From positions 1-23,481 of IMG/VR virus record IMGVR_UViG_3300017743_000131: 23,481 nucleotides of DNA; one strand, given 5' to 3'. The notes under the pieces are model-generated. The model had not been told where the DNA came from. It did not search any database and saw nothing but the letters and a program-made list of their open reading frames with translations. Of the stretch, positions 6,157-23,481 are shown in pieces. This stretch comes from a virus. The translations under genes were made by a program, and so were the position numbers. The stretch's first letter is position 1, and every line of letters starts with the position of its first letter.

Positions 6157-6876
6157 ATGGGAATTAGAAGAGGTTCCATAACAACACCAATTATAGCAGA
6201 TGGTTTAATTTTCAATATTGACGCTGCAAATAGATCAAGCGCACTTCCTAAAAGTGATACTACTACTGTATTTAACACCGCAGGAGATATCACTATTTCA
6301 GGATCAGTTTACAATGAATATGATATGTGGGAAGGTCCTACTACAGCTAGTTTCGCATTTGACACTGCAGATTACATAGGACTTAACAGAAGTATGTCAG
6401 AGTTATTAACAGCTGATTCATCTTTTTCATTGTCTGTATGGGTAAAATTCCCATTAGCTGTACATTTAGTAATATTAGGAAACGAAGATTCAGAGTCTAA
6501 TCAACTTGAATTTTCTGTTGATCCTAATAATAATTTTATGATTTTAAGTTTAAATAGTACTAATTCTGTCGAATATGTAGGTAGCGTATTTCAAAACCCA
6601 ACAATCAATAAATGGTGGAATTTAGTTTGGGTACTAGAAGTAGTAGGTAGTACTAAAACATATAAAGCTTATGTCAACGGTCAATTTGGTGGTTCTAATT
6701 CAATATCAACTTCATATACCCTACCAACATCGAATAGTATAATAGGGGATGGGAAGGTTTTTGGTGGTACTGCAGGAGATCTTAATATTGCTAATTTACA
6801 ATTATATAATATAGCACTCAATTCAAATTATGTTTTACACAACTACAACGCATTAAAATCAAGATTCGGATTATAA
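6157..6876 (+). CDS. LamG-like (concanavalin-type) virion protein, array member 1
   Basis: A 239-residue protein. It has the typical frame of phage LamG_3-type proteins: an opening GLIFNIDAANRSS (17-29), a central FAFD / FSLSVWVKF strand pair, KTYKAYVNGQFGG near residue 167, and a closing IANLQLYNIALN plus NYNALKSRFGL. This jelly-roll fold usually binds carbohydrate or forms exposed virion decorations. ATG 6157 lies 4 bases after the fibre stop and I see no Shine-Dalgarno sequence, so translation may depend on coupling to the fibre gene. Its stop overlaps the next start as TAATG. It is the most diverged at the N-terminus (GIRRGSITTPIIAD). Family call is by motif; the ligand is unknown. Confidence 0.8.
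   Translation: MGIRRGSITTPIIADGLIFNIDAANRSSALPKSDTTTVFNTAGDITISGSVYNEYDMWEGPTTASFAFDTADYIGLNRSMSELLTADSSFSLSVWVKFPLAVHLVILGNEDSESNQLEFSVDPNNNFMILSLNSTNSVEYVGSVFQNPTINKWWNLVWVLEVVGSTKTYKAYVNGQFGGSNSISTSYTLPTSNSIIGDGKVFGGTAGDLNIANLQLYNIALNSNYVLHNYNALKSRFGL
6835..6858 (+). repeat. 24-bp exact repeat at the 3' end of LamG gene 1
   Basis: The tract starting TTACACAACTACAACG is identical over 24 bases to 7614-7637 at the end of LamG gene 2, while the gene interiors are very different. A 15-base part (AACTACAACGCATTA) recurs at 9103-9117 in LamG gene 4. Confidence 0.85.
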
Positions 6877-7655
6877 TGGCAGGATCAGTAGGAAATATAA
6901 CAACAGATATAATTAAAAGTGGATTAGTGTATAGTATTGATGCAACAAATAGAGCTAGCGTTTCATTAAAACCAAACCCAACACTAGCATATAATACTAT
7001 AGATACATCTTTATCATCTTCTATAAATGATGCTGGTATGTGGGAAGATATTAATGGAGGATCATTTGCTTTTGATGGTAGTGGTGATGTTATTTTATGC
7101 CAGTCAGATTTATCAGGAAATATAAATTCTATGGTAGGGGCTATAACGGTTCAATGTTGGGTAAAAACAACACAAACTACAGTTTACAGATGGGCTGTTG
7201 TTAGAGATCAAGGAGGTGGAACTGCAAGAGATTGGAACTTAATTAAAGATAATTTTTATGGTAATGGAGGTAGAATGATATTTACTATTTTTAATGAAGA
7301 CAGTACTAGTTTAGCGGTTAGATTAACTGGTACTAATGACCCTGCAGGAAACGCTCTAATAACAATGAATGATGGTAATTGGCATCAAGTAACAGGAACA
7401 TATAATGGTACAGATACAGTATCACTTTATACAGATGGGGTATTACAAGGAAACAATACTTCAGCTGGTCATGGTGCTATAAAAGATAGTACAACTAGAG
7501 TAACTGTAGGTGGATATAATAATGGTAGTTTACCAACATCTTTAGTTGGAAGCTGGGTAGGTAATATAGCTAATACAAGAATCTACAACCGCGCCTTATC
7601 ACCATCTGAAATCTTACACAACTACAACGCATTAAAAGGGAGGTTTGGTTTATAA
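6876..7655 (+). CDS. LamG-like virion protein, array member 2
   Basis: A 259-residue protein and the most typical of the four: GLVYSIDATNRAS (16-28), GGSFAFDGSGD (61-71), TVQCWVKTT (91-99), WHQVTGTYNGTDTVSLYTDG (169-188) and RIYNRALSPSEILHNYNALK (235-254). The WH.V..TY......LY.DG signature is characteristic of LamG/pentraxin-like domains. The start ATG 6876 shares its A with the preceding TAA, indicating translational coupling. The 3' end contains GGGAGG (7638-7643), well placed as the ribosome site of the next gene. Function as a surface lectin-like or receptor-binding protein is inferred. Confidence 0.88.
   Translation: MAGSVGNITTDIIKSGLVYSIDATNRASVSLKPNPTLAYNTIDTSLSSSINDAGMWEDINGGSFAFDGSGDVILCQSDLSGNINSMVGAITVQCWVKTTQTTVYRWAVVRDQGGGTARDWNLIKDNFYGNGGRMIFTIFNEDSTSLAVRLTGTNDPAGNALITMNDGNWHQVTGTYNGTDTVSLYTDGVLQGNNTSAGHGAIKDSTTRVTVGGYNNGSLPTSLVGSWVGNIANTRIYNRALSPSEILHNYNALKGRFGL
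7614..7637 (+). repeat. 24-bp exact repeat at the 3' end of LamG gene 2
   Basis: Second copy of the tract at 6835-6858, in the same reading frame and encoding the same conserved C-terminal residues LHNYNALK. Confidence 0.85.
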
Positions 7656-8386
7656 TGGGATTAGCACACGGAGTAAACATAGTAAAAGATGGATTAGTAT
7701 TGTATTATGATTCAGCAAATCCAAAATCATGTACAGGAACAACTAGTTCTGATAAAATATTCGATTTATCTGGAATATCTTATAATACAGGATCTAATCC
7801 TAATAATACAGGATCATTTCAAGGTACTGTTACTAAAACAGAACACAATTTAGCATTCGAATTTAATGCTGTTGGAGATAATATAACTGTACCTAATTTT
7901 ATGGACCCTTTATCAGATGATTCAAAATTTCCAGAAGGTAATAATAATCCTAATATTACTTTATCATGTTGGGTTAATAATACAAATTTAAATAGTGGAG
8001 ATAATTCATTAATGTGGATAGGTGATCAAACTGCACGTGGAGTTCATGCTATGTGTACTAATAGTACTAGATATTCATTTTTACATTATGCAGGTGATGC
8101 TGTATTTACAGATTATACTATTCCAGCTGCTACATGGCAACATGTTACAATGACATATAATACTACAGGAAGAGTTAATCAATTATATGTAGATGGAGAT
8201 CTTATACAAACTATAAGCAACAAACCTACTTCTGATATTGATATAACTTTTCCAGATTTAAATTTAGTTGGTAATTATAGAAATAGTAAATTAGGATTTG
8301 CCGCATGTTTTATGATTTACAATAGAGTTATATCAGCTCAAGAAGTCAAACAAAATTACGATGCAATGAAAGCGAGGTTTAGATAA
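7655..8386 (+). CDS. LamG-like virion protein, array member 3
   Basis: A 243-residue protein with GLVLYYDSANPKSC near the N-terminus, ITLSCWVNN in the middle, TWQHVTMTYNTTGRVNQLY with VDGD directly after, and FMIYNRVISAQEVKQNYDAM at the end. It starts in the TAATG overlap with member 2 and ends in TAATG with member 4. Its C-terminus (AMKARFR) and the DNA beneath it have drifted from the shared AACTACAACGCATTA tract of the other three. Same inferred role as its neighbours: an exposed jelly-roll domain that may bind glycans. Confidence 0.85.
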   Translation: MGLAHGVNIVKDGLVLYYDSANPKSCTGTTSSDKIFDLSGISYNTGSNPNNTGSFQGTVTKTEHNLAFEFNAVGDNITVPNFMDPLSDDSKFPEGNNNPNITLSCWVNNTNLNSGDNSLMWIGDQTARGVHAMCTNSTRYSFLHYAGDAVFTDYTIPAATWQHVTMTYNTTGRVNQLYVDGDLIQTISNKPTSDIDITFPDLNLVGNYRNSKLGFAACFMIYNRVISAQEVKQNYDAMKARFR

Positions 8387-9138
8387 TGGCAGGAATAGCA
8401 GCACCAAATATAGTTAAGGATGGATTAGTATTTTATCAGGATGCGGCTAATTTAAGATCATATCCTAGAAGTGGAGCTACTGCTACAGATTTAATAAATA
8501 ATATTACTGGTTCTTTAAGTGGAGCCAATGGTGATAATAATACACCGCAATGGGAAAATGCAAACGGCGGGGTATTTAATTTTGATGGTACTGATGATAG
8601 TATTTCTACTACTTCTAGTTGGCAAACCGATATAGGTTTAAATAATGCAACAAAGTTAAGTTTTTCTGCATGGGTAAAACCTAATTCAGGTACAGGATCA
8701 AGTATTATGGCTATAACTTCTCAACCATATGGAAGTTGGAATGGCAATTTTAATATAACTTATAGGGTCGATCCATTATTATTAGCTTTAGAATTTAGAG
8801 GTGCAGGATCTGTATTTAACAATGCTACTACTACATTATCAACAACTAAGTTTACAAATATATGTTTTGTAATTGATCTGGATTTGACCCCGGCATCATC
8901 AGCCGTAAGATGTTTTATAAACAATTCTGAAATACCAAGTGGTAACGCAGGATCTACTCCGCTTAACTTTGTATTGCAAACCACTTCTTTTAATATAGGA
9001 AGAACATTTTGGGGTAGTGGATTTACAGGTTATCCATGGAAGGGTAATATTTCAAACATATCTTTTTATAATAAAGCCTTATCAGAAGCAGAAGTCCTAC
9101 AAAACTACAACGCATTACGAGGAAGATTTGGATTATAA
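8386..9138 (+). CDS. LamG-like virion protein, array member 4
   Basis: A 250-residue protein with GLVFYQDAANLRSY, GGVFNFDGTDDSI, KLSFSAWVKPNSG and a closing ISFYNKALSEAEVLQNYNAL, all LamG_3-type landmarks. It lacks the classical WHxV strand found in members 2 and 3; that position reads FTNICFVIDL. GAGG (8374-8377) at the end of member 3 is a suitable ribosome site. It is the last of the array. Its stop codon lies within a TATAAATA sequence (9134-9141). Confidence 0.85.
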   Translation: MAGIAAPNIVKDGLVFYQDAANLRSYPRSGATATDLINNITGSLSGANGDNNTPQWENANGGVFNFDGTDDSISTTSSWQTDIGLNNATKLSFSAWVKPNSGTGSSIMAITSQPYGSWNGNFNITYRVDPLLLALEFRGAGSVFNNATTTLSTTKFTNICFVIDLDLTPASSAVRCFINNSEIPSGNAGSTPLNFVLQTTSFNIGRTFWGSGFTGYPWKGNISNISFYNKALSEAEVLQNYNALRGRFGL

Positions 9139-18412: not shown

Positions 18413-20593
18413 ATGGCAGGAGATCTTTATTATTCACAAGTTAATTCAAGTTTAAAAAAAGAACTATTAGCAAGATCTGCTACAGGTAAACTAAATAGAT
18501 CTCCAGAATCTATAGACTTCATGTTAAACAAGCTAACCAATGTAAAAATATATGCATTTGAAGGAGATACTGTAACAACTGATCCTATAGGCGTATTAGG
18601 AGGAGGACTAGTAACGCAAAATTCAGAAAATGGATATTCATATTTACCTAGTGGCCCATCTGGATACGCAACTAATATTTCTACAAGGCCCGGGCCAGTA
18701 ATCACCGGCGTTACAGTTAATATTGCAGATCAAGGAGAAAAGGGAATAAATACTGCAACTATTAATTTAACAATAATGGATCCAGCTCAATTAGTAGAAA
18801 TTGAAGATACATTTTTTAGACCCGGACGACCATTAAAAATAGAAATAGTACAACCAGATGATGTTATACAAAATACCGAATCTGGAACAGGAGCGTTGTT
18901 AAACAGAGATGAATTATTATATACTACTAAAATATTGCAACAACAATATAAAGGTACTGATCAAGATCTAGACGAATTTCGAAAAATGAATCAACTAATA
19001 TTTACTGGTCTTGTAGATGGATTTAAAGTTGAATATAATGTAGATGCAACGTTAAATGTAACATTAACTACAAGATCGATTTTTGGTATTTATCCAGATG
19101 TATCATTGTTTATATCAAATCCTCAAATTCCAAATTCTTCTATAGATCAAACTATAACTAAAACGTTTTCTGACACATTAAAAGGAGATATTAATAACGA
19201 AGTAGAAAGATTAAAAAAAGATTATCCGAATGGATTTATTCAACAGTTTCAAATTTTAGATGAAATAAAAAACGAAACTGATCGTGTAATGTTATATGGA
19301 CCTATATATAAATCTAGAGACAATCAAAAATATGGATATACAACAATGATATCTATAGGATTATTAATAGACTTTTTATATAAATATATTTATCTACCTG
19401 CAGTTAATACAAAAGATGATGACTCTCCAGTTGTTGTTCCAAATATGCAGATTGTATGCGATGATAGATTATGTAAAACAAATTATTATGAAGAACTAGT
19501 TTCAGCAAATCCAAGTAGAATTTTATTATATCAAGGAAATACAGAAGAATCAAAAACAAATGATTATATAAGACTAGCTGGTACTGGAGATGGAATAGAA
19601 GTAACAGAAGGAGGTTTACGAACTGTAGGTAGTATAGACGATATAGGAAACGAAGAAACTATAGCAACAGAAGATTATGTTATTAACTATTATGATGGTA
19701 TTGAAAATATAGGAAATATTCCAGGATTCTATCAAGTATCTGACAAGGATCAAGTAAATCCAACATCTGAATCAACTAAATATGGATGTTTATCAAGAAT
19801 ATTAATTAATGTAGAAACAATTGCAGAACTAGAAAGTAAATTACGAGAACAAACCACTAGGCCATTTACTATTAAAAATTTTATGATTGAAATATCAAAT
19901 GAAATTAAAAAACAATTGGGTTATGCAATATTTCCTGGTTTAATTTATCATTCAGAATCACCAAGTACTTTATTGTTTTATGATCAAAATTATTTTGGAC
20001 CAGATTTACAAATAGCAGAATTTGAAATACCAGTATTTTCTAGCAAATCGCAAGGTACAGTCGTACGTGATATAAAATTATCATATGATGTGCCAGATAA
20101 ATATAAAAATTTATTATTTGGATTTAGATCACAAGCAGTATCTCCTACTAAAGTTGCTTCATATAATCCATATCTAATATCTAATTCTTCGAAAGCTCGT
20201 GAAGAAGAACAAGAAAAATGGAAGGAAAATCACGAAAAATCATTAACACAATTAGCAGACGCAAAATCAGAATTAACAAAAGACATTTATGATAAATCAT
20301 ATATTGATAATTTACAAAATGCATTAGAATTATATGTAAAATATTCTGAACCATCATTACAAGAATCTATAGATCAACAAAAACCTAGATGGTTGTATAC
20401 ATTAGAATTTACAGTTGATGGTATTAATGGATTTAAATTTGGAGATGTTTTACAATTTAGAGGATTACCAAAAAAATATAATCAAGATTATGTTTTTATT
20501 GTAGATAAAATAACACATCAAATAGATTCAACAGGACAATGGACTACTACTTTAAACTGTGGAACTAGAGCAAGAAGCACATCGATAATATAA
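18413..20593 (+). CDS. Baseplate hub-like protein (gp27/gpD-type)
   Basis: A 726-residue protein. The N-terminal region has VITGVTVNIADQGEKGINTA (96-115) and ATINLTIMDPAQLVEIEDTF with FRPGRPLKIEI after it, then FTGLVDGFKVEYNVDATLNV (197-216) and TLTTRS; these are the alternating strands of hub domains in T4-like and Mu-like phages. A charged helical stretch (about 595-658, KAREEEQEKWKENHEKSL) precedes a C-terminal hub-type strand set (FTVDGINGFKFGDVLQF, LPKKYNQDYVFIVDKITHQI, STGQWTTTLNCGTRARS). It would form the central ring below the tube. The start ATG 18413 has only a weak ribosome site. Hub identity is probable; the middle (240-590) is unassigned. Confidence 0.72.
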   Translation: MAGDLYYSQVNSSLKKELLARSATGKLNRSPESIDFMLNKLTNVKIYAFEGDTVTTDPIGVLGGGLVTQNSENGYSYLPSGPSGYATNISTRPGPVITGVTVNIADQGEKGINTATINLTIMDPAQLVEIEDTFFRPGRPLKIEIVQPDDVIQNTESGTGALLNRDELLYTTKILQQQYKGTDQDLDEFRKMNQLIFTGLVDGFKVEYNVDATLNVTLTTRSIFGIYPDVSLFISNPQIPNSSIDQTITKTFSDTLKGDINNEVERLKKDYPNGFIQQFQILDEIKNETDRVMLYGPIYKSRDNQKYGYTTMISIGLLIDFLYKYIYLPAVNTKDDDSPVVVPNMQIVCDDRLCKTNYYEELVSANPSRILLYQGNTEESKTNDYIRLAGTGDGIEVTEGGLRTVGSIDDIGNEETIATEDYVINYYDGIENIGNIPGFYQVSDKDQVNPTSESTKYGCLSRILINVETIAELESKLREQTTRPFTIKNFMIEISNEIKKQLGYAIFPGLIYHSESPSTLLFYDQNYFGPDLQIAEFEIPVFSSKSQGTVVRDIKLSYDVPDKYKNLLFGFRSQAVSPTKVASYNPYLISNSSKAREEEQEKWKENHEKSLTQLADAKSELTKDIYDKSYIDNLQNALELYVKYSEPSLQESIDQQKPRWLYTLEFTVDGINGFKFGDVLQFRGLPKKYNQDYVFIVDKITHQIDSTGQWTTTLNCGTRARSTSII

Positions 20594-21267
20594 TGAGAAA
20601 AAAAGAATATTATAATAAAGAAGAAGTTGTTGAAAATCAATATACTACTGGTAAAGAGTATATGACTAAAAATCGTGTTGAATATATTGGATTATATCAC
20701 AAATATATTACTGGCGAAGTTTATACATTAGCTACATATAATCCTAATAAATCAATTCCACTAATAACTTATCAAGAAGAATCTGCAGATATTAAATTGT
20801 ATAAAACTAATAAATCAAAAATAAAAACTAAATACAATACTCCGAACATATTTTATCCATCTCCTACTACAGCTGATATTAAGAAAAAGCGTATGACAAG
20901 ATATGTTTTAAAAAATGTATCTACAAATCAAATTTTTGAAACTAATTTACAAACAGTTAAAAATTATCAAAAAAAGAAAATTGATAATAATTTATATCAA
21001 TTAGAAACAATTGAATGGAAAATATCTGGTCCGTTAAATACCACAACAATAAATGGAATTACACAAATTGGAGTAATAGAAGAAAATATTCAAACAATAC
21101 GTAATAAATCAAAAAAAATGTCAGGATTATTACAATATTTCAAATCATATTCCGAATTTTATACTGACACTATATATGAAATACCAGAAAATATAAATCA
21201 ATCTTTTTCGTCTCAACCTACTACTACTTCAACATCAACTCCTACGTCAGTATCTACTTCATACTAG
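20593..21267 (+). CDS. Small virion-associated protein with YHKYITGE motif and Ser/Thr tail
   Basis: A 224-residue protein whose ATG at 20593 overlaps the last base of the hub stop (TAATG), implying coupled translation. VEYIGLYHKYITGEVYTLAT (29-48) matches the pattern F..eYtG.YH.h..TG..mtg found in several T4-like virion proteins. The middle is Lys-rich and the C-terminus is a low-complexity Ser/Thr/Pro tail (SQPTTTSTSTPTSVSTSY) that is probably disordered. A baseplate or hub accessory role follows from its coupling to the hub gene; no specific function is known to me. Confidence 0.65.
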   Translation: MRKKEYYNKEEVVENQYTTGKEYMTKNRVEYIGLYHKYITGEVYTLATYNPNKSIPLITYQEESADIKLYKTNKSKIKTKYNTPNIFYPSPTTADIKKKRMTRYVLKNVSTNQIFETNLQTVKNYQKKKIDNNLYQLETIEWKISGPLNTTTINGITQIGVIEENIQTIRNKSKKMSGLLQYFKSYSEFYTDTIYEIPENINQSFSSQPTTTSTSTPTSVSTSY

Positions 21268-21309: not shown

Positions 21310-22638
21310 ATGATAATAATAGACGATTCAAAAGAACTAGATTCGTTATTACAAGATATTAAAAATGAGACTCATGTATTGGTAGTTCCAATATTGGCAG
21401 ATCATCAATTACATCCATCTATCAATAAAATATCATGTATATACGTATATTCAAGCAATGAAATTGAATTCATTGTTCCTATACATCATACAGAACAATT
21501 AACCGGGTTTAAAGAACATCTAAATAAACTACTCGATTTGAAATCTATATTTGTGCATGACAAAAAGTTATGGTTACAAATGGGCGGAAATAACAATGTT
21601 TATGATGTTAAAACTCTATGGTGGTATACATACGGAGAAGCTTACGACGAAAATCATTATTATACATCAGCTCATCATTTTTATTGGAGAAGACATACTA
21701 ATTTGCAACATGTAAACACAATTGTTCCTTTAATGAAACATGCAGAAATGTGTCAAAAAATACGCAAGTATGCAATGCCAATGATAATTAACTCAAAATT
21801 ATCAGACTCATATAAAAAATTTAATAATTATTATCCAAAAATATTTTCTGAAATTGAATCTAACGGGATGCAAACAACTAATTCATTTAAAATGAAAGAG
21901 TTAATAAAAGATGGACGTGTTTATTCTCAATATCATTATCATACAACTACAGGCCGGCCATCTAATGCATTCCGTGGATTTAATTTTGCAGCAATGAATA
22001 AACAAGATGGAACAAGAGATGCTCTTTGTAGTAGATTTGAAAATGGTGCATTAGTTGAATTTGATTTTGATGCATATCATGTAAGATTAATAGCTCAATT
22101 AATTGGATATAAATTACCAACTAGATCTATTCATACATATTTTGGAAAATTTTATTTTGGTACTGATAAATTAACATCAGATCAATATGAACAAAGCAAA
22201 CAAATAACATTTAGATTGCTATATGGTCATATAGAAAAAGAATTTTTAAAGATTCCATTTTTCAATGAAGTAAATAATTTTGTACATTCATTATGGAGTG
22301 AATGGAAAAGTAATGGATATATAAAGACTCCAATATTAAAAAGAGTATTAAGTAAAGATAATTTGTCTGACATGAACCAAAATAAATTATTTAATTATTA
22401 TTTGCAATCATTAGAAACAGAATTTACTGCAAGTAGATTAAATCTTTTATCAAATTTATTAAAAGAATATAAAACATGTATTATATTATATACATATGAT
22501 TCAGTGTTATTTGATGTTCCAATTTATGAAGCTAAAGAAATATTAATCAAGATAAAATCATGTTTAGAAGGCAATGATTTCCCTGTTAAATGTAAAGTAG
22601 GTAATATTTATAGTAAAATGAATGACATCAAGTTATGA
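21310..22638 (+). CDS. Short, divergent family A DNA polymerase-like protein
   Basis: A 442-residue protein with the recognisable order of PolA motifs: HTTTGRPSNAFRGFNFAAMN (211-230, the TxTGR region); motif A LVEFDFDAYHVRLIA (248-262) with D252 and R259; motif B QSKQITFRLLYGHIE (295-309) with K297, F301, Y305 and G306; motif C LYTYDSVLFDVP (393-404) with D397. Both metal-binding Asp are kept, but motif A Glu is His, the motif B Arg is Tyr, and motif C HDE is YDS. The N-terminal 180 residues (SIFVHDKKLWLQM, NVYDVKTLWWYTYGE) look like a degenerate 3'-5' exonuclease domain without a clear DxE. T4 itself uses a family B polymerase, so this is an unusual gene here. ATG 21310 has no evident ribosome site. 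It overlaps the next gene. Confidence 0.72.
   Translation: MIIIDDSKELDSLLQDIKNETHVLVVPILADHQLHPSINKISCIYVYSSNEIEFIVPIHHTEQLTGFKEHLNKLLDLKSIFVHDKKLWLQMGGNNNVYDVKTLWWYTYGEAYDENHYYTSAHHFYWRRHTNLQHVNTIVPLMKHAEMCQKIRKYAMPMIINSKLSDSYKKFNNYYPKIFSEIESNGMQTTNSFKMKELIKDGRVYSQYHYHTTTGRPSNAFRGFNFAAMNKQDGTRDALCSRFENGALVEFDFDAYHVRLIAQLIGYKLPTRSIHTYFGKFYFGTDKLTSDQYEQSKQITFRLLYGHIEKEFLKIPFFNEVNNFVHSLWSEWKSNGYIKTPILKRVLSKDNLSDMNQNKLFNYYLQSLETEFTASRLNLLSNLLKEYKTCIILYTYDSVLFDVPIYEAKEILIKIKSCLEGNDFPVKCKVGNIYSKMNDIKL
22605..22612 (+). promoter_or_regulatory. TATTTATA inside the 3' end of the polymerase-like gene
   Basis: AATATTTATAGTAAAATG lies 22 bases before ATG 22635. It matches the recurrent element in sequence and spacing but sits in coding sequence, so it may be chance. 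Confidence 0.2.
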
Positions 22639-23481
22639 TAAATAAGATTATTAATGAATGGACATATCAACTAGATTCTGGATATCCAACAAAAGATTCT
22701 GATTATGAAGTACTTCGTTCGGTATTACGAGAAACCAATATGCTTTCTGAACAAGAAATTGATCAAACAATTTATCAAGCTAAAGGATTAAATGAACAAG
22801 ATGAAGGTTTTTTAGAAACTATGACTAATGAGTTACTTGCAGCAAATGTTAAACAGCCTGTAATAGATGTTGTTATACAAACATATAATACTTTATCTGC
22901 AGGAGAAAAAATAGCATTCAAAGAAAATTTCAGAACTCATTCAATTGAATCATATGTAAACAGAGAAGGATATAAACCATTTGTTAAATTTTGGCCAATC
23001 AAAGGAAAAGATCAAGGTAGTGGAGAAGTACCAGTAACTCTAGGAGTAGCAGGAAGTAATTCTGGAGGAAATACAGGAAAAGATATTAACTTAAAAAACG
23101 GAGAAACATGGGAAGTAAAAGAATTAACTCCTAGTAATTACGATTTTGATCCTGCAGGCGATGGAGACGCTAATAAATTTCCCTTTACATTTGAGCTAAG
23201 AGATTTTTATAAAAATATTATAGAGCCATTTTCTGATTTAGGCGACGTTTTTAATGCATTATCTCCAATGGTTGATAAAGAGTCTCATGGAGCATTAAAA
23301 AGAATGATTCAAATAATAAACGATCGATTTGCAAATCCAAAACAAAATTCTCAAAATGTTGCTATATTTCGTGAAGTAGCAATGGGCTTTTTTTGGAAGC
23401 ATTGGTATTTAGGATTTCAAGAATTAAATAAAATTTTCTATCAAACAAAATTAGACACAGATGTTAGAGATACAAGGGTAA
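22635..23481 (+). CDS. Partial gene coupled to the polymerase-like gene; possible PD-(D/E)XK-like nuclease
   Basis: This frame starts at ATG 22635, overlapping the upstream stop as ATGA, and stays open for 282 codons to the window end. It begins INKIINEWTYQLDSGYPTKD. Residues about 128-163 contain GSGEVPVTLGVAG (E130), then GKDINLKNGETWEVKEL (D150, E160, K162), which resembles the E...D...ExK order of PD-(D/E)XK-fold proteins. The following region (FPFTFELRDFYKNIIEPFSD and MGFFWKHWYLGFQELN) is helical and aromatic-rich. The coupling suggests it works with, or is made in fixed ratio to, the polymerase-like protein. The nuclease reading rests on one motif only; it could equally be a structural or unknown protein. 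Confidence 0.6.
   Translation, partial: MINKIINEWTYQLDSGYPTKDSDYEVLRSVLRETNMLSEQEIDQTIYQAKGLNEQDEGFLETMTNELLAANVKQPVIDVVIQTYNTLSAGEKIAFKENFRTHSIESYVNREGYKPFVKFWPIKGKDQGSGEVPVTLGVAGSNSGGNTGKDINLKNGETWEVKELTPSNYDFDPAGDGDANKFPFTFELRDFYKNIIEPFSDLGDVFNALSPMVDKESHGALKRMIQIINDRFANPKQNSQNVAIFREVAMGFFWKHWYLGFQELNKIFYQTKLDTDVRDTRV

Follow-up and report, generated by a model that had tools for sequence, protein, structure and literature searches.

The closest described proteins are those of divPolA1, named in 2024 by Yutin et al. (Virol J 21:200; PMC11348598) from 14 phages, with an extra, divergent family A polymerase (PolA) of Flavobacterium phage immuto as the type example. These proteins have lost the exonuclease aspartates and have a truncated thumb, with the catalytic palm kept; their genes are additional to a regular DNA polymerase of family A, B or C and have replication genes downstream (PMC11348598). 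In the literature searched, the name occurs only in that paper and its preprint, and the main text of the paper makes no mention of the steric gate. Another group, divPolA2 (barbaviruses and others), likewise consists of small extra PolA-like polymerases without an exonuclease beside another DNA polymerase; the authors describe its N-terminal domain as one with no known relatives (PMC11348598), and its representative AUR84708 was not reported by our divPolA1 profile. Here we describe the 442-residue product of positions 21310–22638 of IMG/VR record IMGVR_UViG_3300017743_000131, a complete contig of 23,481 bases (the window) to which knowledge of its own phage is limited. The product is a new member of divPolA1, a small, stripped-down and apparently working relative of DNA polymerase I (Pol I).

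The open frame has an ATG start and no internal stops. Its product matches Pfam DNA_pol_A (PF00476; 4.6e-9, 36.1 bits, cut-off 34.3 bits) and the DNA polymerase family PHROG 17 (3.6e-13). The AlphaFold (AF2) model has a predicted local distance difference test score (pLDDT) of 94.2 and a predicted template modelling score (pTM) of 0.91, and its residues 1–438 superpose on residues 301–876 of Bst Pol I with a Z-score of 28.9 and 3.3 Å over 406 residues. Klenow is ranked first by Foldseek among PDB structures, with Pol theta and Pol nu also near the top, and Bst and Taq are ranked first by VIA-align. By the Pfam match above the cut-off and the predicted Pol I palm and fingers, the product is a family A DNA polymerase; a preliminary description of the window, made from its letters, had called it a short, divergent enzyme of this kind, and the predicted fold agrees. 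The Pol I large fragment (Klenow, Bst, Taq) is matched over the whole length with the active-site residues aligned, but in divPolA1 the residues equivalent to E710, H881 and the proofreading site are replaced. The profile alignment also skips from Klenow residue ~554 to 633, leaving ~80 thumb residues (~555–632) without a counterpart, so that the thumb appears truncated with most of it missing, as described in PMC11348598.

Phylogenetic analysis was carried out on 92 rows, including E. coli Pol I, T7 gp5, SPO1-like and CRP-3-like proteins and the second PolA of immuto. The divPolA1 rows are split from all ordinary PolA by a branch with 100/100 support and 1.91 changes per column, in line with the earlier expectation of a clade of their own; since this branch is long, the tree does not place the divPolA1 root within family A. 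The nearest ordinary sequences by profile are those of SPO1-like phi18, CM1, Roseobacter phage CRP-3 and the second PolA of immuto. The single 'PolA' row inside the divPolA1 clade is a mislabelled protein (L369), which had passed for an ordinary PolA with a DYDAYH motif and is, according to the tree, a divPolA1 that the CRP-3 query had picked up. Ordinary phage replicative PolA form a separate clade and retain the motif A glutamate; those that have the exonuclease domain retain its residues too. The window protein lies outside that clade, has histidine for the motif A glutamate and has lost the exonuclease site, which sets it apart from the ordinary replicative PolA. T7 RNA polymerase was not reported by the divPolA1 profile, and the motif A of divPolA1 has the spacing of DNA polymerases; the genome search with PF00940 was run without a positive control.

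The immuto protein falls in the same clade as the window protein and was found by tblastn at 5e-53, with 31% identity over 92%. Further relatives found by tblastn are in the uncultured 484 kb phage LR756508 (31%) and in Microcystis phage Mel-JY01 (25%), both of them hosts of the gene beyond the 2024 description. Scanning IMG/VR gave at least 597 confirmed viral contig stretches with divPolA1, and more branches were reached with other queries. A search of bacteria and archaea with one genome per species returned only three matches, each in a metagenome bin; one of the contigs (L334), in a Candidatus Nitrosopelagicus bin, is probably a mis-binned phage contig. Four open reading frames of RM378, which has a related tail sheath, were picked by annotation or size and searched, and these four gave no divPolA1 profile match. 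The divPolA1 of Mel-JY01 (L082:19968-21194) is annotated as hypothetical and was missed by the Pfam DNA_pol_A genome search. The family is under-annotated and undercounted, because the whole Mel-JY01 branch lies below Pfam detection and is called hypothetical.

Conservation was assessed in 85 diverse divPolA1 representatives clustered at 80%. Residues D252, D254, H257, K297, F301, Y305, G306, Q366, Y396 and D397 are invariant, and the alignment of 75 sequences built for modelling agrees. The family profile places D252, H257, K297, F301 and Y305 at Klenow D705, E710, K758, F762 and Y766, and Q366, D397 and S398 at Q849, D882 and E883. Two further residues that contact template and primer, R216 and N362 (Klenow R668 and N845), are kept together with Q366. 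The ratio of nonsynonymous to synonymous substitution rates (dN/dS) is 0.13–0.23 between the window gene and nine close relatives, which points to a gene under purifying selection and not decayed. Proofreading needs four acidic residues, whereas in residues 1–165 D99 alone is conserved at 90% or above. The proofreading site is therefore judged lost and the 3'-5' exonuclease domain inactivated, much as the preliminary description had supposed; its two catalytic aspartates (D252 and D397) and its motif B lysine, phenylalanine and tyrosine-glycine are likewise among the conserved residues.

That description had also listed three altered motif positions, which fared differently in a comparison with 69 ordinary PolA representatives, nearly all viral. 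The position of E710 is occupied by glutamate in 67 of these; of the two other rows, one is misaligned and the other is L369. The histidine at this position of divPolA1 is thus truly unusual. By contrast, the motif B tyrosine (Y293) that was thought to replace arginine is variable within the family itself (Y in 69 and R in 16 of the 85). The YDS of motif C is only half unusual: position 883 is S in 51, Q in 11 and E in 7 of the 69, so that most ordinary phage replicative PolA share the serine with divPolA1, while tyrosine at 881, before the motif C aspartate, occurs once and is the truly unusual part. The serine had been considered as a mark of an RNA polymerase or of a dead enzyme, which is ruled out by its being the majority residue in ordinary viral PolA. 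The family signature is D-[FY]-D-x-[YF]-H for motif A and Y-D-[SA] for motif C.

In Pol I, E710 is the steric gate that blocks ribonucleotides (PMC9324360; PMC13136892). In a phage PolA with a natural serine in motif C, the mutants D384A and D615A each retain 4% activity, whereas E389A (equivalent to E710) retains 35% and S616A 76%, only the two aspartates being essential (PMC9324360). By these activities, neither H257 nor S398 is a sign of a dead enzyme. The steric-gate glutamate, kept in the ordinary PolA checked, is replaced by an invariant histidine throughout divPolA1.

The genome setting differs from that first proposed. Tail genes, including sheath and tube, lie upstream in the window, and the polymerase had been placed within a T4-like tail module. 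This impression is an effect of the contig end, as the window stops 843 bases past the gene, and its downstream operon is inferred from relatives. A survey was made of 102 relatives whose sequence continues for 7.8 kb or more after divPolA1 (counted as contigs, which need not be independent lineages), with gene names by Pfam and PHROG taken from one of them (L013). A gp002-like protein, a gp32-like single-stranded DNA-binding protein and UvsX are found downstream in all 102, the 5'-3' exonuclease FEN in 101 and the DnaB helicase (DnaB/gp41) in 100. The divPolA1 gene is the first gene of a conserved replication operon that comes right after the tail module, and is not a tail gene.

A replicase encoded elsewhere, of family B, had been expected, and PolB is indeed present in the nearest relatives. 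Another DNA polymerase was found in 22 of 24 divPolA1 contigs of at least 84 kb, the remaining two being partial. All 11 contigs of at least 150 kb carry a separate replicase, which is PolB, PolA, or PolC plus PolB. PolB is found in the branches of the window and of Mel-JY01, and also in the nearest large relative (L098, 86% identical); PolA is found in the immuto branch. The record LR756508 (L084) contains three polymerase kinds in one phage, with a PolC/DnaE-type polymerase and two frames that match PolB besides divPolA1. In another contig (L315; G027:53555-55532) the PolB match extends over two frames of 610 and 306 residues, which may mean that the polymerase is split, that it contains an insertion or that the sequence is in error. 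The same 11 genomes all encode a DnaG primase; the lead that divPolA1 replaces a primase, taken from an operon without one, was set aside on this ground.

Coordinates are summarized in Table 1. The stop codon of the polymerase overlaps a possible start of the next gene (ATGA) in the window and in 105 of 122 relatives having that next gene, which is carried by 127 related loci. Its product has E131, D150 and K162 invariant among 28 aligned members, and the resulting E ... D ... xxK pattern resembles that of PD-(D/E)XK nucleases; no Pfam family scored above the cut-off in any related locus. No copy was found at the loci of immuto and Mel-JY01, and the gene is therefore not essential to the polymerase in general. 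The gp002-like small protein (~127–151 residues) has the motif HRKKETNTLYT; its predicted model has a pLDDT of 95.5 and matched no fold in the PDB at E <= 0.001. Elsewhere in the window, four consecutive open reading frames at 6157–9138, of 239–259 residues and each matching the virion-structural PHROGs 8510 and 24074, are a tandem array of paralogous structural genes.

Table 1. Features of the divPolA1 locus in the window, with examples of the gp002-like protein in relatives.
Feature	Position	Strand	Evidence
divPolA1, family A DNA polymerase with inactive exonuclease and reduced thumb (predicted), 442 residues	21310..22638	+	Pfam/PHROG, family alignment, AF2 model, PDB match, tree
Exonuclease-like N-terminal domain without proofreading residues, residues 1–165	21310..21804	+	Bst superposition; single conserved acidic residue
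Motif A FDFDAYHVRLIA, residues 251–262: catalytic D252; invariant D254, H257 (Klenow E710 position)	22060..22095	+	Alignment, Klenow profile
Motif B YEQSKQITFRLLYG, residues 293–306: invariant K297, F301, Y305, G306	22186..22227	+	Alignment, Klenow profile
Motif C YDS, residues 396–398: Y396, D397 invariant; position 398 S/A	22495..22503	+	Alignment, ordinary-PolA comparison
PD-(D/E)XK-like protein, incomplete at contig end; start overlaps divPolA1 stop (ATGA)	22635..23480	+	Overlap read, residue conservation
Last tail-module gene, 224 residues, conserved upstream neighbour	20593..21267	+	Present upstream in 226 relatives
gp002-like protein, examples	L098:10594-10974; L083:1346-1801

We somewhat favor the interpretation that divPolA1 belongs to the replication and recombination apparatus of the phage itself, as an accessory DNA polymerase without proofreading. 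Most likely it would synthesize short stretches, without proofreading, during recombination-dependent replication and repair, probably in concert with the operon's FEN nuclease. Short DNA tracts would be added at 3' ends that recombination has produced or that adjoin FEN-processed ends, with low processivity. The pair could be viewed as a split Pol I, with divPolA1 as the polymerase part and the 5'-3' nuclease part encoded a few genes on, and the invariant histidine at the steric gate may change how the enzyme deals with the nucleotide sugar or with damaged templates. Several points weigh against this interpretation. That divPolA1 polymerizes is something we infer, and the data fit gap filling, recombination-primed extension and lesion bypass alike. 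The window is a 23.5 kb contig, with its replicase and operon known only from relatives, of which the nearest large one is 86% identical. To our knowledge, T4 manages without such an enzyme.

Among the alternatives, a translesion polymerase, able to copy the damaged template at which the replicase stalls, is possible though unlikely. The lack of proofreading, the reduced thumb, the presence of a second polymerase alongside the replicase, and the appearance of Pol theta and Pol nu with Klenow in the top Foldseek matches are all consistent with it, but these two rank near ordinary Pol I, VIA-align leads with Bst and Taq, and no specific lesion-bypass feature was found in divPolA1. The steric gate suggests instead a polymerase that accepts ribonucleotides and synthesizes or elongates primers of RNA or of mixed composition, since H257 is present in 85 of 85 divPolA1 against a nearly universal glutamate in ordinary PolA. 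We regard this as doubtful: histidine is still bulky and may exclude ribonucleoside triphosphates, no evidence of de novo initiation was found, and with DnaG in every large genome a primer maker is not missing. A related proposal, slightly more doubtful again, is that sugar selection has been re-tuned to accept ribonucleotides or a phage-modified nucleotide, giving mixed RNA/DNA stretches in recombination-dependent replication and acting, in some members of the family, jointly with the translationally coupled PD-(D/E)XK-like nuclease.

Two further possibilities had been raised in the preliminary description. A catalytically dead structural or regulatory DNA-binding relic, having lost synthesis, might be expected from the missing proofreading site, the shortened thumb and the altered motifs; it is very improbable in view of the wide spread over hundreds of phages, the purifying selection and the invariance of all residues for catalysis. 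A template-independent terminal transferase, which had been put forward in that description only, is hardly credible with R216, N362 and Q366 kept.

The divPolA1 family was already known; added here are its wide spread, the invariant histidine in place of the steric-gate glutamate, and a PD-(D/E)XK-like gene coupled to that of the polymerase. The polymerase is retained by hundreds of T4-like aquatic phages whose main replicases differ (A, B or C), and must therefore do something that the replicase does not.
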